Shown piece after piece: positions 6,758 through 43,590 of a DNA stretch of 50,093 bases (its first letter is position 1; each line of letters starts with the position of its first letter). The stretch covers positions 1-50,093 of the IMG/VR virus record IMGVR_UViG_3300047557_002037, one strand, 5' to 3'. A program made the translations under genes and the position numbers. Origin of the DNA: a virus. The notes under the pieces were generated by a model. It was not told where the DNA came from. It saw nothing but the letters and a program-made list of their open reading frames with translations, and ran no database searches.

Positions 6758-7532
6758 ACGTCTTAAAAGAGAAGCCAAGGCAGCAAAAGCAGCTCAAAAA
6801 AATTTAGAAGTATTACAATCTCTCGATCCAAATACAAAAGTTACTGTGCTGTGTGTGAGATTCGGTAACAAATATGGTAGGGAGTATGTTGAAAGATTAA
6901 GAAATATGATCTCTCGACATCTTTCCATACCTTACGAATTTGTATGTTTAACTGATGATCAGCATCCTATAGACGGTGTAAGATCTATATATCAACCAAA
7001 CGCAAACTATCACAGAGGATGGTGGCATAAGGTTCATATGTTTGATCCTAATTTGCCATTGCGGGGTAGAATAATTTATTTCGATCTCGATGTGGTCATA
7101 CATAGCAATATTAATAAATTGGCATTGTATCTTCCGGATCAATTTGTAGGCATACATGATTTCAATAGAAAATTTTATGCATCCTGGAAATATCTCAATA
7201 GTTCTGTACTAGCATGGAATCACGGAACACAAAATCACATCTGGGAACAATTCAAATCAAAACCTGCAGACGCTCAAAGAATGCAGGGAGATCAAGATTG
7301 GATTTGGAAGTTATGTCAAAATAAAATTAAATTTTGGCCTAAAGAATGGATAATGAGCTACAAATGGGAAATAAGATCAAGAGAAGAACTGCATGTGTTA
7401 AATGGTAAGAGACAGTTCAAAACCGTTAAAGACGATGTAAATACTCATCCAGAATGTTCTGTAGCTGTATTTCATGGCGAGCCAAATCCCTGTGAAGTAA
7501 AGGATAAATTTGTCATTGACAACTGGCGTTAA
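6732..7532 (+). CDS. Glycosyltransferase, GT-A fold (GT8-like)
   Basis: This 266-residue protein starts with a short basic helix ([17 protein letters not shown]) and then a GT-A-type domain. [18 protein letters not shown] and YEFVCLTDD form the nucleotide-binding half. The metal-binding DxD motif is D118-L-D120 in [13 protein letters not shown]. Later segments QGDQDWIW and AVFHGEPNP are typical of phage-borne transferases of this type. Donor and acceptor are unknown. It overlaps kdsA by 26 nt, which ties the two together in a glycan cassette. The 3' end contains the -35 box of the uvdE promoter. Confidence 0.8.
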
Positions 7533-7544
7533 AAGTCGTATAAT
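7516..7544 (+). promoter_or_regulatory. Perfect-consensus sigma-70 promoter for uvdE
   Basis: TTGACA (7516-7521), a 17-nt spacer and TATAAT (7539-7544) form an exact consensus promoter. Six nt separate the -10 box from the ATG at 7551, so the expected +1 is the A of the start codon. There is no Shine-Dalgarno, so the early uvdE message is predicted to be leaderless. Confidence 0.9.
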
Positions 7545-7550
7545 AATAGT

Positions 7551-8576
7551 ATGACTAAACGTATTGGTTTTGCCTGCAAATGGATCGATCGACCTGATCA
7601 AGTAAACGGTATTAAGCCTAAAGATGACTGTAAAAAGTATAATACCGGAAGTACCACTGTTGCTTGGTTAAATAGACAAAGTAGAGACGCAGCCTGTGAG
7701 AAGCTCTGGGATCTGATGAAACAGAACATCGAAAGCTGCCGACTGCTAGTAGAGCGAGTTGGAGAATTAGATGAAGATCTTAGAATGGTACGACTCAGTA
7801 GTGATATCCTTCCTGTATACACTGAGCCAACTTGGAGCTGGTTTTGGCGGACTCCCGATGTCAGATCAGCTTGTGAAAGAGGATTTCAGCAAGTGGGAGA
7901 TGCAGCTCGCTCGCGTGATGTTCGGCTTAGTTTTCATCCTGGTCAGTTTACTGTCCTTGCTAGCGATAACGAAGATATTGTAAATCGTTCAATCGAGGAA
8001 TTCGAATATCACGTGGACATGGCTCGCTGGATGGGGTATGGTAAAACGTTCCAAGACTTTAAAATCAACGTTCACATCGCAGGCCGACGAGGACCCGATG
8101 GTATACGTTCTGCGCTGGCTCGCATGACTCCAGAAGCCCGCAATACATTAACGATCGAGAATGACGAAATTTCGTGGGGTACAGATGCTAGTCTAGAACT
8201 AATCAAAGACTGCGCACTGGTATTAGACATACACCATCATTGGATACACACCGGAGAATATATTGAAGCGAATGACGACCGTGTTAAAAGGATTATTGAT
8301 AGCTGGCGTGGTCAGCGGCCTGTTATACATTATAGTGTTTCACGGGAAGAGCATCTTAATGACCATCCCATCGACACCCTTCCCTCCCTTGATGCGCTAA
8401 TGGAGAGTGGACATAAAAAAGCAAAACTCAGAGCTCATTCAAACTTCTACTGGAACACAGCAGCGAATAAATGGGCACTGAGTTTTAGGGATAACTTCGA
8501 CATCATGTGCGAGAGCAAAGCAAAAAATCTTGCTTCGTTCGCACTCTACGAAGAAGCTAAAAGATTAGGCCTTTGA
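7551..8576 (+). CDS. uvdE: UV damage endonuclease UvdE/UvsE
   Basis: This 341-residue TIM-barrel nuclease cuts 5' to UV photoproducts and some other lesions, starting an alternative excision repair route. Family motifs include RIGFACKW at the N-terminus, MVRLSSDILPVY, RLSFHPGQF, FKINVHIAGRRG, LTIENDE, VLDIHHHWIH and IHYSVSRE. These hold the His, Asp and Glu residues of the metal centre. Length is normal for bacterial homologues. It has an exact-consensus host promoter and probably a leaderless message, so repair would start early in infection. The last 12 nt overlap the convergent - strand gene. Confidence 0.95.
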   Translation: MTKRIGFACKWIDRPDQVNGIKPKDDCKKYNTGSTTVAWLNRQSRDAACEKLWDLMKQNIESCRLLVERVGELDEDLRMVRLSSDILPVYTEPTWSWFWRTPDVRSACERGFQQVGDAARSRDVRLSFHPGQFTVLASDNEDIVNRSIEEFEYHVDMARWMGYGKTFQDFKINVHIAGRRGPDGIRSALARMTPEARNTLTIENDEISWGTDASLELIKDCALVLDIHHHWIHTGEYIEANDDRVKRIIDSWRGQRPVIHYSVSREEHLNDHPIDTLPSLDALMESGHKKAKLRAHSNFYWNTAANKWALSFRDNFDIMCESKAKNLASFALYEEAKRLGL

Positions 8577-8913: not shown

Positions 8914-9471
8914 ATGCTACATTTTATTAAAAGTCTAACAGAAAACAAAGATAAAAGAGAAATTTACCAAGAAAAACTTAAATTTGGTAAAGATGAACTT
9001 GCACCGGTAATGAGTGAAGATACTCTAAAATACCACTATGACGGCCTCGCTGCCAAGTATTCAGATCGATATAACAAAGGTGAAGGTGATCCGGATTTCA
9101 ATTATGGTGGTGCTATGTTGCACAACATTTTCTTTGCTAACTTGGCCCCGCCCAGAGCAGCTAATAAACCAGAGGGGCTCAGTAAATCTATCATAGATGA
9201 AAAGTATGGAAGTTTTGAAAAATTTAAAGAAGCTGTGGAAAAAGAATTTATGGCAGCTCAAGGATCCAATTGGATCTATATGGATACCAGTGGCACACTG
9301 CACACGATACATAATCACGAATATAAAAAGACGATGAAAATCTCTTTATTGATAGATGCTTGGGAGCATGCATGGGCATTAGATTATCAACAGGACAAAG
9401 CAAAATACTTAAATAATATTTGGAGAATCATCAACTGGGAAGTTGTTGACATCCGTTTACAAGGAGCGTAA
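8914..9471 (+). CDS. Fe/Mn superoxide dismutase
   Basis: I chose the ATG at 8914 (185 residues) because the longer frame covers the divergent promoters and the start of the opposite gene. All four metal ligands of the Fe/Mn family are visible: H41 (LKYHYDGL), H70 (MLHNIFF), and D148 and H152 (DAWEHAW). The gateway Tyr is kept (Y49), but the usual second-sphere His-His of the KHHQxY motif is replaced by Leu-Ala-Ala. The position of the metal-tuning Gln appears to be His (THTIHNHE region). The enzyme should convert superoxide to peroxide and oxygen; metal preference cannot be told. It lies directly upstream of the Fe-S assembly genes. Confidence 0.9.
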   Translation: MLHFIKSLTENKDKREIYQEKLKFGKDELAPVMSEDTLKYHYDGLAAKYSDRYNKGEGDPDFNYGGAMLHNIFFANLAPPRAANKPEGLSKSIIDEKYGSFEKFKEAVEKEFMAAQGSNWIYMDTSGTLHTIHNHEYKKTMKISLLIDAWEHAWALDYQQDKAKYLNNIWRIINWEVVDIRLQGA

Positions 9472-35966: not shown

Positions 35967-36690
35967 TGAAGGACTTCGTCCATTAGATCTTCAAGAAATG
36001 GTGCATACCATTTTTGAAATAGACAGTTTTAAGTCTAAAATGGGCGAGGATCGTGATGTATGTGTAGTCAGTTTTAAAATCAAAGATAGATCACCTGCTA
36101 AAGATTTAATGGAATTTATCGAGAAAGGTTATTCTTTTGTATTAGATGCAGATGTCAGTTCCGGAGAAGATAACAGCGGAGAATATTCTGTATTTGTAGA
36201 AATCAGCAGAACTCCTAAATTATCTGAACAGATCAAAGAATTAACCTACGGAGTTCGTAAACTCACTGGCATCGATGAATTTAAATTCAAATATTATAAA
36301 GAAAATCAAATATACGAAGTTAATACAGAGAATCTAAAGAAGATTCCTCTTACTTCTGAAGACTATGACGGTTTCATGAATCGGTTAAGAACAGAAAGTG
36401 TCAAACGATTCTTTAGTAAAACATTAATGGATGACCTAACATTAGATCAAGATATCATAACTATACATAAACCGTTTGATAAAAAGATACAGTTAAAAAT
36501 TGTCAAGGAAGATAAGCCGGATTCTATATTAGAGGGCATCGAAGACAATCTAATCATCGATGATCATTCTATGGGAGAAATCTTTTGGCTAACTAAAGTA
36601 TTAGGCGATTACAATATTAACAAAGTTGGTGAAAATTTTGTTTTCAATAATGCTGATCGATCTATGTTATTAAAAAGGATAGAACAATGA
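35944..36690 (+). CDS. Conserved late protein of T4-like phages, unknown function
   Basis: I chose the ATG at 35944 (248 residues), 23 nt inside the previous gene; a longer frame from 35899 is less likely. Distinct segments are GEDRDVCVVSFKIKDR, DLMEFIEKGYSFVLDADVSS, YSVFVEISRTPKLSEQIKEL and a C-terminal GEIFWLTKVLGDYNINKVG. The N-terminal half looks like a mixed alpha/beta domain used for protein-protein contact. It is found with the preceding gene in related phages, so they may form a complex. Function unknown. Confidence 0.7.
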   Translation: MQNNQQLNEGLRPLDLQEMVHTIFEIDSFKSKMGEDRDVCVVSFKIKDRSPAKDLMEFIEKGYSFVLDADVSSGEDNSGEYSVFVEISRTPKLSEQIKELTYGVRKLTGIDEFKFKYYKENQIYEVNTENLKKIPLTSEDYDGFMNRLRTESVKRFFSKTLMDDLTLDQDIITIHKPFDKKIQLKIVKEDKPDSILEGIEDNLIIDDHSMGEIFWLTKVLGDYNINKVGENFVFNNADRSMLLKRIEQ

Positions 36691-37313
36691 GTTTTACATT
36701 CGAATTCACAAAAGAACAATTAAAAGAAATGATTCCTAAAAATCCCTATGTGGATCAATGGTACAAGGCTTTGAGCGAAATTCTTCCAGAATATGAAATC
36801 AATACTCCCCAGCGTGTGGCAGCATTCATAGCACAATGCGCACACGAAAGTGGTGGATTTATTTTCTTAAAAGAAAATCTAAACTATCGTGCTGCTAGTT
36901 TACGTAAAGTTTTTCCTAAGTATTTTCCAGATGATGCCACAGCAGCCGCATACGCTAATAAACCAGAAATGATCGCTAATAGAGTTTATGCAAATCGTAT
37001 GGGAAACGGCGATGAGGCCAGCGGAGATGGTTGGAGATTCTGTGGTCGTGGACTAATTCAATTAACTGGTAAGAACAACTATACATTTTTCGCAGCATCT
37101 ATAGGAGTTAGTTTGGAAGAATGCGCCGAATATTTAGAAACATTCGAAGGTGCTGTACAATCAGGTTGTTTCTTCTGGGAACAAAATAAACTTAATCAAT
37201 GGGCGGATGCCGGAGATATTCTTACATTAACTAAGCGTATCAATGGTGGCACTATCGGACTTGAGGACAGGATTAAACACTACAATCACGCCCTACACGT
37301 CTTCGGAGTGTAA
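36687..37313 (+). CDS. GH19-type endolysin (lysozyme/chitinase fold)
   Basis: The 208-residue protein shows the glycoside hydrolase family 19 pattern used by phage lysins. AAFIAQCAHESGGF holds the catalytic Glu, ENLNYRAASLRKVFPKYF follows, and GDGWRFCGRGLIQLTGKNNY is the substrate groove. FEGAVQSGCFFWEQNKLNQWAD and ITLTKRINGG complete the fold. It should cut peptidoglycan glycan strands at lysis. There is no signal peptide, so it would need a holin. Its position right before the spanin-like pair confirms the lysis role. It overlaps the previous gene as ATGA. Confidence 0.9.
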   Translation: MSFTFEFTKEQLKEMIPKNPYVDQWYKALSEILPEYEINTPQRVAAFIAQCAHESGGFIFLKENLNYRAASLRKVFPKYFPDDATAAAYANKPEMIANRVYANRMGNGDEASGDGWRFCGRGLIQLTGKNNYTFFAASIGVSLEECAEYLETFEGAVQSGCFFWEQNKLNQWADAGDILTLTKRINGGTIGLEDRIKHYNHALHVFGV

Positions 37314-37315
37314 AA

Positions 37316-37771
37316 ATGTTTTCATGGTTAATGGATGCAGTCCTTAGCTCAATACCTGCCTGGATGTGGCTAGTAGGAGCAGGGACTGGATTAGTTGCCT
37401 TCTTTTTCGCTAGTATTTTCAGTCACTTTCCCCCTGTTCGACCTTACATGATGCTGGTAAAACCTCTAGGAGGTTTAGCTGCATTGGTTTGTGTATTCAT
37501 GTACGGTGGTAGCGGAGTACAGGCTATGTGGGAAGAAAAGGTTCGCATAGCACAAGAAGAAGCTGATCGAAAAGCAGTATTAGCCGAACAACTTAACAAA
37601 GATTTAGATAAAGAAAGAAAAAAGAAAGCAGAAGTGCGTGTAGAATACAGAGACCGAATAAAAACTGAAATTAAAGAAGTTGAAAAAATCATCGATGCTA
37701 AATGTGAAATTGATCCAAAAGTTTTAGAACTTCTTAATAAAGCTGCTACTAATCCGGAGAAAGCGAAATGA
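37316..37771 (+). CDS. Membrane protein with coiled coil, probable i-spanin-like
   Basis: The 151-residue protein has two hydrophobic segments (WLVGAGTGLVAFFFASIFSHF and VKPLGGLAALVCVFMYGGSG), then a long charged coiled coil from about residue 65 (QEEADRKAVLAEQLNKDLDK onward). Inner-membrane spanins (Rz) have one N-terminal anchor and a periplasmic coiled coil; here there are two anchors. It ends as the lipoprotein gene begins, with a 4-nt overlap, as in Rz/Rz1 pairs. A combined holin and spanin role is possible. Confidence 0.65.
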   Translation: MFSWLMDAVLSSIPAWMWLVGAGTGLVAFFFASIFSHFPPVRPYMMLVKPLGGLAALVCVFMYGGSGVQAMWEEKVRIAQEEADRKAVLAEQLNKDLDKERKKKAEVRVEYRDRIKTEIKEVEKIIDAKCEIDPKVLELLNKAATNPEKAK

Positions 37772-38037
37772 AATTTTTAATTTTGTTAGCTCCATTGCTT
37801 TTAACTGGATGTTTGTTTAAACAGCCTGTTCCTGTAAAACAAGTATGGCCCGATGTTCCTAAAGAATTATTAGAAGCCTGTCCGGATCTTAAAAAAGTTG
37901 ATCCAGAAAAAAATAAACTCAGCGATATTTTAAATGTAGTCAGCGAAAATTATTCTACGTACTATGATTGTAAAGCCAAAGTAGATGATTGGATAGTATG
38001 GTATAATGGTCAGAAAAAGATATATGAAGGAAAATAG
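37768..38037 (+). CDS. Outer-membrane lipoprotein, probable o-spanin (Rz1-like)
   Basis: The 89-residue protein has a short signal with lipobox L-L-T-G-C at residue 16 (FLILLAPLLLTGCLF), after which the mature protein would be lipidated. The mature part includes a proline-rich stretch, EACPDLKKVDPEKNKLSD, then VVSENYSTYYDCKAKVDDWI and YNGQKKIYEGK. This pattern is common in phage Rz1-like proteins. With its neighbour it would fuse inner and outer membranes in the last step of lysis. Confidence 0.8.
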   Translation: MKFLILLAPLLLTGCLFKQPVPVKQVWPDVPKELLEACPDLKKVDPEKNKLSDILNVVSENYSTYYDCKAKVDDWIVWYNGQKKIYEGK

Positions 38038-39581: not shown

Positions 39582-39809
39582 ATGAAACATTATATTTTCG
39601 CAGCAGGTTTAGCATTAGCAGTAGCATACCCCACAGTATATGCTGCCGATGATAAGAAACCAGAAACAGTTAAAGTCTGTGTAGATGTTCAAGGTAAAGA
39701 TGGAAAACCAGTAATTGATCCAAAAACCAAAAAACCAAAACAAGACTGTAAGGAAGTAAAGAAACATAAAAAACATGAAGGCACAGCAGTTCCTGAAAAG
39801 AAAAAATAA
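39582..39809 (+). CDS. Small secreted Lys-rich protein
   Basis: GGAGAG lies before the ATG. Residues 1-21 form a classical signal peptide (KHYIFAAGLALAVAYPTVYA with an A-x-A-type cleavage site), followed by a mature protein of about 50 residues that is lysine-rich and has two cysteines (VKVCVDVQGKDGKPVID, then KQDCKEVKKHKKHEG). It should be periplasmic. A role in envelope disruption or binding of polyanions is possible. It is the last gene before a terminator. Confidence 0.65.
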   Translation: MKHYIFAAGLALAVAYPTVYAADDKKPETVKVCVDVQGKDGKPVIDPKTKKPKQDCKEVKKHKKHEGTAVPEKKK

Positions 39810-39833
39810 CAGCTCAGTAAATCTTCATTAAAT

Positions 39834-39860
39834 AAAAGGACTGCTTGACGTAGTCCTTTT
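39834..39860 (+). terminator. Intrinsic terminator with a promoter -35 box in its loop
   Basis: AAAAGGACT (39834-39842) and AGTCCTTTT (39852-39860) form a 9-bp stem with a 9-nt loop, followed by more T residues (39861-39863). The -35 box of the dnaJ promoter (39845-39850) lies in the loop, so terminator and promoter are physically merged. Confidence 0.85.
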
Positions 39861-39873
39861 TTTATCATATAAT
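39845..39873 (+). promoter_or_regulatory. Near-consensus sigma-70 promoter for dnaJ
   Basis: TTGACG (39845-39850), a 17-nt spacer and TATAAT (39868-39873) are followed by six nt and the ATG at 39880. The expected +1 is therefore the A of the ATG, without a ribosome-binding site, as for uvdE. The -35 lies in the loop of the upstream terminator. Confidence 0.85.
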
Positions 39874-39879
39874 AGTACT

Positions 39880-40731
39880 ATGGATTATTACTCAACTCTT
39901 GGACTTAAAAGAGGTGCATCTGAAGAAGAAATTAAAAAGGCTTATCGCAAACTAGCGATGCAGCATCACCCCGACCGAGGCGGTGATCAAAATAAATTTA
40001 AAGAAATATCAACTGCCTACGAAGCACTTAGCGATCCAGAAAAGAAAAGGATAATCGATCTAGGGGGAGATCCTAATGCGCAGCCGGGTATGGGATTTGG
40101 TCAAGGTTCGAGTCCGTTTGAATTCCATTTTGGAACCGGAGATTTAAATGATATATTTGGAAGTTTTGGGTTCGGAGGAGCAGGATTTGGAAGACAACCT
40201 CTTAGAAGGAATAAAAGTCTTAATATCAATGTAGAAATCACATTAGAAGATGTTCTCAAAGGAAAAGATTTAAACGCCGAAATAAACATGCCTGGTGGCA
40301 GAAACAAGATGATCAACATACAGATCCCACCCGGAATAGAACATGGACAACAAATTAGATATGAGGGTATGGGGGACAATTCAATTTCTAATCTTAGACC
40401 CGGAGATCTTTTTGTAAATGTTCTAGTCAAAGATCATTCGAGATTTAAAAGAGAAGGAACATCTCTTATATTAGAAAAAGAAATTTCAGTATGGGATGCT
40501 ATCCTAGGATCGGCATTAGAAATAGAAACATTGGATCAGAAAACTCTATCAATAACTGTACCTGCAGGTACACAACCCGAAACTGTTTTTAGTTGCAGGG
40601 GTGAAGGTATTCCTAATATGAGAACCAGACAGAGGGGAAATCTTTTAATAAAAATAAAAGTAAAAATACCTAAAAATTTAAACAACGAACAATTATCAAT
40701 CATACAGCAATTTAAAATAAATGGAATTTAA
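39880..40731 (+). CDS. dnaJ: DnaJ/CbpA-type co-chaperone
   Basis: The 283-residue protein has a J domain at its N-terminus (MDYYSTLGLKRGASEEEIKK), with HPD at 30-32 that stimulates the ATPase of DnaK. A Gly/Phe-rich linker (GFGQGSSPFEFHFGTGDL) follows, then two beta-sandwich C-terminal domains (LNINVEITLEDVLKGKDL; GTQPETVFSCRGEGIPN). There is no cysteine-rich zinc domain, so it is the CbpA/DnaJ-B type. It should bring substrates to the host DnaK. The promoter is close to perfect and the message is probably leaderless. The next gene starts 11 nt before its stop. Confidence 0.93.
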   Translation: MDYYSTLGLKRGASEEEIKKAYRKLAMQHHPDRGGDQNKFKEISTAYEALSDPEKKRIIDLGGDPNAQPGMGFGQGSSPFEFHFGTGDLNDIFGSFGFGGAGFGRQPLRRNKSLNINVEITLEDVLKGKDLNAEINMPGGRNKMINIQIPPGIEHGQQIRYEGMGDNSISNLRPGDLFVNVLVKDHSRFKREGTSLILEKEISVWDAILGSALEIETLDQKTLSITVPAGTQPETVFSCRGEGIPNMRTRQRGNLLIKIKVKIPKNLNNEQLSIIQQFKINGI

Positions 40732-41215
40732 ATTAGGACCACACGAAACTCTGATACAATCTAGCACGGCTTGGGACTTTTCTATAGACGAAAATTCACA
40801 AGCATTAGAAAAAGCCATGATAGATTTTATGTTAGAAGCCAAAGGCATAGGATTGGCTGCAAATCAAATCGGACTTACTAAGCGTGTATTTGTTATGGGC
40901 AGTCATAATATCAAAGGATTTCCAGAACCATTTGCATTATTCAATCCTAGGATATTAGAACGCAGCACCGAAGAGGTGTTGGATGACGAAGGCTGTCTCA
41001 GCTATCCGGGACTTTTTTTAAAAGTAAAACGTCCTGCATGGGTAATAGCTGAATATCAAAATAGCAAGGGCGATGTCATCGAAGCTAGATTCGAGGGATA
41101 CCTGGCCAAATGTTTTCAACATGAACTAGATCATCTGGACGGTATATGTTTTGTTGACAGAGTATCCCAGATGAAATTACAATTAGCTATGAAGAAATTA
41201 AAAAAGGTAAAATAA
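40721..41215 (+). CDS. def: Peptide deformylase
   Basis: The 164-residue protein shows the three PDF motifs: GIGLAANQIG (42-51), EGCLS (90-94) and HELDH (134-138). Cys92 and the two His bind the catalytic metal, and Glu135 is catalytic. It removes the formyl group from new proteins. Marine phages often carry a short PDF, which may help the turnover or function of proteins made late in infection. It overlaps dnaJ by 11 nt and clpA by one. Confidence 0.95.
   Translation: MEFKLGPHETLIQSSTAWDFSIDENSQALEKAMIDFMLEAKGIGLAANQIGLTKRVFVMGSHNIKGFPEPFALFNPRILERSTEEVLDDEGCLSYPGLFLKVKRPAWVIAEYQNSKGDVIEARFEGYLAKCFQHELDHLDGICFVDRVSQMKLQLAMKKLKKVK
41154..41183 (+). promoter_or_regulatory. Candidate sigma-70 promoter before the ClpA-like gene
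   Basis: TTGACA (41154-41159), an 18-nt spacer and TACAAT (41178-41183) lie inside the deformylase gene. The expected start near 41190 leaves a leader of 25 nt before the ATG at 41215. The chance of a random match is not negligible. Confidence 0.4.
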
Positions 41216-43590
41216 TGATTGAACCTAGTAAGCACTTACAAGAAATTTTTGAAAAATCTGTGCAGGTAGCCAGAGAATTAGATCACGAATACATAACCAT
41301 AGAACATATCGTATTTGGTGTTCTGTGCGATCAAGAATCATACAATCTGTTAGAAAGTTTTGGTGCTGATGCTAATTTTATCAAAACTAATCTAGACCAT
41401 TATCTAAAAAACAATCTCAAAGATATCAAAAATACATCAGCTAATGCTAAACCTAAAAAAACTAATTCTGTAGAACGTGTACTGAATCGTTGTTTTACAC
41501 AGGTTTTATTCAGTGGCAGACAGCGTATGGAAGTAGCTGATGTTATCATCAGTGTATTAAGCGAAAAAAATAGTTTTGGTTATTATTTTTTAACCAAAGG
41601 CGGAGTTACCAAAGAAAAATTCATCAAATATTTCCAGGATAACATTCTCCAAGAAACCAACGATGACGAACCAGAAGTAGAAACTCGAGCCATAACCTCT
41701 AACCAAGTAGACAGAATCTTGAATCAATTTTGCACAAATCTATCTTTAAAAGCTAAACAAAGAAAAATCGATCCTGTTATTGGACGAGATGATGAAATTG
41801 AAAAAATACAACTTGTGCTGGCTAGACGAAATAAGAGCAATGTGTTAATGGTAGGGGATCCAGGAGTAGGTAAGACTGCTATTGCAGAAGGCCTGGCTAG
41901 AAAGATTCACGAAAAGAAAGTTCCTAAGTTCATCCAAGATCATCAAGTTTATACCTTAGACATCAGCTCATTGTTAGCTGGATCGAAGTATCGCGGAGAT
42001 TTCGAAGAGCGTGTTAAGGCCGTTATGGCAGCACTAGAAAAGAAAGGTAAAATTATTCTTTTTATCGACGAAGCTCATATGATGCAAGGTACGGGGGCAG
42101 CTAATCAAAGCTCTAACGATATGAGCAATATGCTCAAACCTATTCTTACCAAAGGAGTTATCAAACTCATAGCATCTACCACTTGGGAAGAATATCGAAA
42201 ATACTTTGAAAGTGATCGAGCTCTTATGAGACGATTCCAGCGTGTTACTATCGAAGAACCTAGTGCAGAAATGACCGTTAAGATTCTTAAAGGTCTTAAA
42301 AAATATTATGAACAACATCATCGTGTTAAAATTTCAGATGCAGCTATCGAACAAGCAGTAAAATTATCTGTAAAATATATGGCTGATAAAAAGTTGCCAG
42401 ATAAAGCTATAGATATCCTAGACTGTGCTTCGGCAAGATACAAACTCAAAGACGATGAAGGCATGGAAGGTGTAGATCAGATCGTTGACATCGAGCAAGT
42501 GACATATGAACTTAGTAAAATGATCAACATGCCTTTGGAAACTGTGGCTCAAAAAGAAAGCAAAAATCTTTCAGATCTAGAAGATCAAATGAAGGGAGTG
42601 GTCTACGGGCAGGATAAAGCCGTAGAAATACTTTTAGATAAAATCTTTGTAGCTCAGGCAGGAATGAAATCTCCTAACAAGCCCATTGGTAGTTTCTTGT
42701 TTCTAGGTCCAACTGGCTGCGGAAAGACCGAAACAGCCAAACAACTTGCTGATAAAATGGGCATGCAGTTGATCCGTTTCGACATGGGAGAATATCAAGA
42801 GAAGCACAGTGTGGCAAGATTAATTGGTGCACCGCCGGGTTATGTCGGTTACGAAGATAATGCAGGTATGCTGATCACCAAACTGCAAGAACATCCTAAC
42901 AGCATTCTTCTTCTAGACGAAATCGAAAAAGCCCATCCAGATGTTTCTAATATTCTTCTAGCATTCATGGATAATGGATTTGTCACTGGATCTAACGGTA
43001 AAGTAGCCGATGGCCGCAATACCATTCTTATCATGACCAGCAACTTAGGTGCTGCAGATAACGAAAAGAATACTATCGGTTTCGGAGATTTAGAACGAGA
43101 TGGTGAGGATGATAAAGCTATTAAAAAGTTTTTTGCGCCCGAATTCCGTAATCGTTTAGATGCTGTGATTAAATTCAACAAACTCAGTGAAAAAGTTGTA
43201 GAGCAGATCGTCAAGAAATTTGTTGGAGATCTTAATACTCAACTCAAAGATAAAGGAATTGAAATCATCCTATCTGCTAAGGCAACACGTTGGTTGGCAG
43301 AAAAAGGCTATGATAAGAAGATGGGTGCTAGACCGTTAGCTAGATTAATCGACAACGAACTTAAGAGTCCTCTGAGCCGCAGAGTGTTATTCGGAGATCT
43401 TGTAAACGGGGGCAGAATCAATGTAGACATCGTTGATGAAAAATTAGACTTTACTGTAACCGAAATGCCTAAACCGATGACCAAAGAAGAAAGAAAAGCA
43501 GCCAAAGCAGCAGCCAGAGCGGCAGCGGCCAAAGAAGTTTCTGAGGCGGAAGAAAATGTTAACGACAAAGACCAAATTAACCAATCGTAA
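41215..43590 (+). CDS. clpA: ClpA-like AAA+ unfoldase
   Basis: The 791-residue protein has an N-terminal Clp-N-like domain (IEPSKHLQEIFEKSVQVARE, EYITIEHIVFGVL), then two AAA+ domains. Walker A is GDPGVGKT (214-221) in D1 and GPTGCGKT (498-505) in D2. ARRNKSNVLMVGDPG, GSKYRGDFEERVKAV, FIDEAHMMQGTG and VARLIGAPPGYVGYED are standard. There is no ClpB-type middle coiled coil. A ClpP-docking loop, I621-G-F623 in NTIGFGD, is present. It would deliver proteins to a host ClpP. The C-terminus has a 40-residue Lys/Ala tail not usual for ClpA. It overlaps the next gene by 35 nt. Confidence 0.92.
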   Translation: MIEPSKHLQEIFEKSVQVARELDHEYITIEHIVFGVLCDQESYNLLESFGADANFIKTNLDHYLKNNLKDIKNTSANAKPKKTNSVERVLNRCFTQVLFSGRQRMEVADVIISVLSEKNSFGYYFLTKGGVTKEKFIKYFQDNILQETNDDEPEVETRAITSNQVDRILNQFCTNLSLKAKQRKIDPVIGRDDEIEKIQLVLARRNKSNVLMVGDPGVGKTAIAEGLARKIHEKKVPKFIQDHQVYTLDISSLLAGSKYRGDFEERVKAVMAALEKKGKIILFIDEAHMMQGTGAANQSSNDMSNMLKPILTKGVIKLIASTTWEEYRKYFESDRALMRRFQRVTIEEPSAEMTVKILKGLKKYYEQHHRVKISDAAIEQAVKLSVKYMADKKLPDKAIDILDCASARYKLKDDEGMEGVDQIVDIEQVTYELSKMINMPLETVAQKESKNLSDLEDQMKGVVYGQDKAVEILLDKIFVAQAGMKSPNKPIGSFLFLGPTGCGKTETAKQLADKMGMQLIRFDMGEYQEKHSVARLIGAPPGYVGYEDNAGMLITKLQEHPNSILLLDEIEKAHPDVSNILLAFMDNGFVTGSNGKVADGRNTILIMTSNLGAADNEKNTIGFGDLERDGEDDKAIKKFFAPEFRNRLDAVIKFNKLSEKVVEQIVKKFVGDLNTQLKDKGIEIILSAKATRWLAEKGYDKKMGARPLARLIDNELKSPLSRRVLFGDLVNGGRINVDIVDEKLDFTVTEMPKPMTKEERKAAKAAARAAAAKEVSEAEENVNDKDQINQS

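Follow-up and report, generated by a model that had tools for sequence, protein, structure and literature searches.

A candidate terminator–promoter–start-codon element upstream of dnaJ in an uncultured phage

Composite intergenic signals of T4-type phages, the promoter-early stem-loops (PeSLs), were reportedly described by Arbiol et al. 2010 and Comeau et al. 2014. They are said to be recombination cassettes, present in many near-identical copies per genome and mediating gene shuffling. A PeSL is described as a terminator stem-loop combined with an early promoter between genes (PMC4503421). Leaderless phage messages include that of lambda cI (PMC3160421) and those of middle and late genes of the Thermus phage phiYS40 (PMC3594737). 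In the leaderless genes of Actinobacteria and Deinococcus-Thermus, the −10 box lies about 12 bp before the start codon (PMC3160421, PMC12340547).

We analysed an uncultured phage record, of which the whole stretch of 50,093 bases is referred to here as the window. Its dnaJ gene is preceded by a terminator stem-loop combined with an early-type promoter, as in a PeSL. The −35 box lies in the loop of the dnaJ terminator, whereas in phage KVP40, which we scanned, the −35 sequence TTGAC lies in the 5′ arm of the terminator hairpin and a T-rich tract falls within the spacer. KVP40 (AY283928; L533–L544) has at least three near-identical sites of this kind, with TTGAC in the 5′ arm and TATTAT past the T-rich tract. 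Scanned with strict patterns, RB49, KVP40, T4, Aeh1, Phi1 and Atu_ph07 showed neither a leaderless-spaced promoter nor a strict merged site. A few merged sites were seen in each relative; we consider the dnaJ element similar in kind to PeSLs without filing it as a member.

As in lambda cI and phiYS40, the dnaJ message is predicted to lack both a leader and a Shine–Dalgarno sequence, but the sources on those systems describe no terminator sharing promoter bases (PMC3160421, PMC3594737). The −10-to-ATG geometry of the bacterial leaderless genes equals that of the phage sites (PMC3160421, PMC12340547). At least one such genus, however, probably lacks the −35 box (PMC3160421), while the phage sites have a near-consensus −35 box, placed at dnaJ in the terminator loop. 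A literature search that did not extend to the original PeSL papers found no description of a terminator loop that holds a promoter box or of a three-way fusion of terminator, promoter and start codon.

Anatomy and gene context of the element

The element follows a lysis block that includes an endolysin gene (36687–37313) and small ORFs, and precedes dnaJ and two overlapping genes (Table 1). Endolysin and spanin PHROG matches, together with a gene order kept in relatives, bear out the upstream lysis block named in the first-pass annotation, and the order lysis–dnaJ–clp is common across the layout classes of dnaJ loci given below. The DnaJ domain match starts as early as residue 2, and the ATG at 39880 is therefore the only plausible dnaJ start. 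The upstream stop codon lies at 39809, which leaves an intergenic region of 70 bp (39810–39879).

Table 1 Features of the dnaJ and uvdE regions (positions in the window)
Feature	Position	Strand	Remarks
uvdE promoter, TTGACA-N17-TATAAT-N6-ATG	7516–7553	+	Spacing as at dnaJ; without terminator
Lysis block, with genes for an endolysin and two Rz-like spanins	36687–38037	+	Transcript that the terminator would end
Spacer from upstream stop codon to hairpin (GCTCAGTAAATCT...)	39810–39833	+	Conserved in relatives
Terminator hairpin	39834–39860	+	11 pairs; loop TTGAC at 39845–39849; pairing kept in relatives despite stem changes
−35 box TTGACG	39845–39850	+	Five bases form the hairpin loop
Terminator T tract, doubling as part of the promoter spacer	39857–39863	+	T-rich stretch kept in promoter-less loci
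−10 box TATAAT	39868–39873	+	17 nt 3′ of the −35 box
Discriminator AGTACT (6 nt), −10 to ATG, without Shine–Dalgarno	39874–39879	+	5–6 nt in nearly all close relatives
dnaJ, predicted leaderless	39880–40731	+	DnaJ domain match from residue 2
Peptide deformylase gene (def)	40721–41215	+	Overlaps dnaJ; predicted common operon
ClpA-like ATPase gene	41215–43590	+	Overlaps def; predicted common operon

The hairpin arms, AAAAGGACTGC and GTAGTCCTTTT, enclose the loop TTGAC and are followed by more T residues, TATAAT and six further bases. The first-pass annotation had given a terminator stem of 9 bp; the hairpin stood, but its stem has 11 pairs, a count that takes in an A-T extension and one G-U pair. 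For positions 39810–39868 the minimum free energy was −14.5 kcal/mol (z = −3.8), and none of 200 shuffled sequences was equally stable. The −35 box had been placed within the loop, and this is so for five of the six bases of TTGACG, with the sixth (G, 39850) closing the stem. The positions given for TATAAT, 17 nt on, and for the ATG, six nt further, proved exact, and the promoter (TTGACG–17 nt–TATAAT) agrees with TTGACA and TATAAT at 11 of 12 positions. The proposed sharing of bases was likewise confirmed: the loop provides five bases of the −35 box, the T tract lies within the 17-nt spacer, and terminator, promoter and start codon together take up about 47 bp.

At this junction, then, a G+C-rich hairpin with a T tract directly 3′, as in an intrinsic terminator, is found with hexamers near TTGACA and TATAAT at the 16–18-nt spacing of a sigma-70 promoter. 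An ATG about 6 nt past the −10 box, without a Shine–Dalgarno sequence, is the arrangement of a leaderless gene. We retain the leaderless dnaJ of the first-pass annotation as a prediction, with transcription expected to start at the A of the ATG.

Other origins of the element were rejected. Chance coincidence of the layout was ruled out by conservation in relatives and by shuffling, and Rfam gave no match at the gathering score that would point to a known RNA family. No tRNA was found in the window of which the element could be a remnant, though AGCTCAGT resembles a tRNA D-arm.

A 12-mer, GCTCAGTAAATC, is conserved 5′ of the dnaJ terminator (39812–39823). The same 12-mer occurs at 9177–9188 within the coding sequence of a sod-like gene, and there most relatives use identical synonymous codons. 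A viral scan with a 14-mer gave many contigs among the matches listed, in unsorted contexts. By analogy with tR2, for which ribosome disruption of the terminator was measured against spacer (PMC4824070), the spacer from stop codon to hairpin may protect the terminator from disruption by ribosomes.

Conservation of the layout at dnaJ loci

Relatives were sampled as 36 IMG/VR dnaJ loci with 50–79% identity in best segments, and the upstream DNA of the distinct ones was aligned. Nearly all aligned relatives keep the hairpin, the −35 box, the T-tract spacer, the −10 box and an ATG at 5–6 nt; the −10-to-ATG spacing annotated in the window is thus kept at orthologous dnaJ genes, and likewise at uvdE. 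The stems vary (GGACTGC, GGCTGC, GGCAGC, GGGGGTAGG and others), but the −35 box stays and pairing is mostly kept, one pair being GC in 7, AU in 5 and GU in 5 sequences. In L033, a relative at 50% DnaJ identity, a different stem (GGCAGC/GCTGCC) encloses an intact TTGACT. Covariation among close relatives is modest, since their sequences differ little and most of the signal comes from a single pair.

A profile search extended the DnaJ relatives to about 40% identity, and the layout persists with different stems down to that level. We classified 94 distinct loci in all, among which related sequences are not independent in the comparisons that follow. Type A, with the −35 box in the terminator loop, was found at 39 of the 94, with the ATG 5–9 nt past the −10 box and exactly 6 nt past it in 31 of the 39; one further locus was borderline type A. 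Type B, with the −10 box in the terminator loop and the ATG at 20–39 nt, accounted for 20 loci; the layout was seen at L566, L569, L570, L572, L573, L578, L603, L610 and others, and, outside this count, at L074 and L113 at uvdE. Judging from this geometry, transcription from a type B promoter would start within the 3′ arm, and the new transcript would lack a complete hairpin. A promoter only was present at 14 loci, neither signal at 14 and separate signals at one. The remaining five (L003, L023, L558, L561 and L565) had a terminator only, without a recognisable promoter; in L003 and L023 the promoter has been lost while the hairpin and the T-rich tract remain. Loci with neither signal or with a terminator only indicate that the promoter is dispensable at some loci.

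Where both signals were found, terminator and promoter overlap at 60 of 61 dnaJ loci. Mapped on a maximum-likelihood tree of DnaJ, type A requires 15 changes, of which well-supported branches force 12, and type B requires 8, of which they force 5; the layouts have therefore been gained or lost repeatedly. That the layout is kept across relatives while most letters change suggests that it is selected. The predicted end of one transcript, the next promoter and a start codon are packed here into a layout that outlasts replacement of its bases, a clear case in which architecture, not sequence, is conserved in phage regulatory DNA. From sequence alone, such a layout allows start sites and leaderless proteins to be predicted in uncultured phages.

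Proposed function and competing explanations

We put at roughly four in five the probability that the composite terminator–promoter insulates the lysis block from the dnaJ–def–clp operon, giving the predicted leaderless message. A polymerase arriving from the lysis genes would transcribe both arms, the hairpin would form and transcription would stop in the U tract. A sigma-70-type holoenzyme, probably that of the host, would read the loop as its −35 box and TATAAT as its −10 box, with the 3′ arm and T tract supplying most of the 17-bp promoter spacer, and the new transcript would begin at, or within about 1 nt of, the dnaJ ATG. A transcript starting there would lack both hairpin arms and so would not terminate itself, and since the message would have no leader or Shine–Dalgarno sequence, translation would start on the 5′-terminal AUG. 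To end the lysis transcript and start a separate dnaJ message, at no extra cost in sequence, is the most likely function of the element. This reading draws on the stability of the hairpin, the near-consensus promoter, the overlap, stem replacement and G-U pairs at dnaJ loci, the terminators kept at five promoter-less loci, the 5–6-nt peak with its lack of Shine–Dalgarno motifs, the viral hairpin excess and the kept gene order. The dnaJ loci lacking the promoter and the modest covariation weigh against it, as may the position of the −10 box about 4 nt past the T tract, which would place termination near a bound polymerase.

Operator palindromes are commonly centred on the −35 box, and the inverted repeat at dnaJ would fit a repressor operator, not a terminator, at a protein-regulated promoter. 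We consider this very improbable, as relatives have wholly different stems that still pair, and a T-rich tract lies 3′ of the stem even where the promoter has been lost. Several sequences also have G-U pairs in their stems, which are expected of an RNA hairpin and not of a DNA operator. The dnaJ loci with a terminator only or no signal imply that dnaJ can be expressed another way, and the gene might be translated mainly from lysis-block read-through, with the promoter weak or unused. Even deeply diverged relatives nevertheless keep near-consensus boxes and the spacing to the ATG, and the absence of a Shine–Dalgarno sequence 5′ of the dnaJ ATG would make internal initiation poor, so that we hold read-through to be unlikely as the main source.

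The overlap might be due only to the short intergenic space of phages, the two signals being uncoupled and their overlap not itself under selection, as the 70 bp available before dnaJ and the compact composite signals known in T4-like phages (PeSLs) would allow. Against this, all but one of the loci with both signals show the overlap, two distinct geometries recur on the tree, and tandem, non-overlapping pairs are also present in these genomes. We judge this possibility to fall somewhat short of even odds; it is compatible with insulation by a composite element and concerns only why the overlap exists.

After termination, E. coli RNA polymerase remains on DNA and re-initiates nearby in vitro (PMC6978380), and whether one polymerase couples termination and re-initiation in vivo is still an open question (PMC6978380, PMC11347151). 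By analogy, a polymerase halted in the T tract might stay on the DNA and be handed to the embedded promoter, so that lysis transcription would feed dnaJ–def–clp, although we regard such a hand-off as doubtful. Were it true, selection for coupling would have produced both geometries (−35 in the loop and −10 in the loop). The element offers a natural test bed for such coupling in vivo.

Leaderless spacing at uvdE and occurrence in other phages

The first-pass annotation had equated the spacing at uvdE with that at dnaJ, and the match is exact (17 and 6 nt at both), with no terminator at uvdE. There the TTGACA (7516–7521) falls within the final part of the preceding gene, with TATAAT at 7539–7544 and the ATG at 7551. 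A promoter was found at 32 of 55 distinct uvdE loci, 29 of the 32 with 5–6 nt before the ATG, and the upstream genes differ.

Within the window, 2 of 10 promoter-like sites with TTGAC have a 5–6-nt ATG spacing. The spacing class was tested on strong-box promoters of the window and five relatives with large contigs. ATG distances peaked sharply at 5–6 nt, where there were 28 sites (including orthologous genes in several relatives, and thus not all independent) against about 2.7 expected from neighbouring distances. A second, broad peak at 20–32 nt comprised leadered starts. Shine–Dalgarno-like motifs preceded 2 of the 28 leaderless starts compared with 49 of 68 leadered starts. The pattern TTGACN-N15–17-TATAAT-N5–7-ATG had 39 matches in thirteen long relatives, and the reversed pattern had none.

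Leaderless-class genes include those encoding UvdE, DnaJ, a DNA primase, an SbcD-like nuclease subunit, a QueE-like enzyme, a phosphoesterase and a nucleotidyltransferase, a content consistent with early or middle expression as judged from homology. The ‘design rule for early genes’ proposed from the window is supported only in part, and not in the form given: the spacing marks one of two promoter classes, leaderless and leadered, and ‘early’ derives from gene content only. A phage-encoded bS21 favouring leaderless translation was considered and set aside: it was found in 3 of 11 relatives, of which several are fragments, with no link shown.

In a scan of viral sequences in IMG/VR for TTGAC-N5–8-T6-N2–5-TATAAT, a hairpin with a TTGAC loop was present at 43 of the 102 distinct sites listed, against 4.3 expected when the 20 upstream bases were shuffled. 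With an ATG at 6 nt added to the pattern, the hairpin was present at 47 of 96 among the sites listed (4.5 expected). When the ATG pattern was searched in genome contigs of bacteria and archaea, a sample rich in AT-rich lineages, the hairpin was present at 2 of 101 among the sites listed (0.9 expected). Most such promoters in the general viral sample listed are leadered (ATG at about 21–23 nt), and the three-way fusion is therefore a minority form, conserved in the dnaJ group. Carriers of the layout are a group of large, mostly environmental phages.

Other arrangements were seen during these scans. A recurrent merged site, AAAAGCCRGTC...TTGACYGGCTTTTTT...TATAAT, precedes a leadered gene in five relatives, G001, G002, G004, G006 and G010 (L118–L168), with the −35 box running into the 3′ arm. 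In G006, two promoters about 500 bp apart (18662 and 19162; L127) have the −35 box inside a long stem-loop with no strong T tract.
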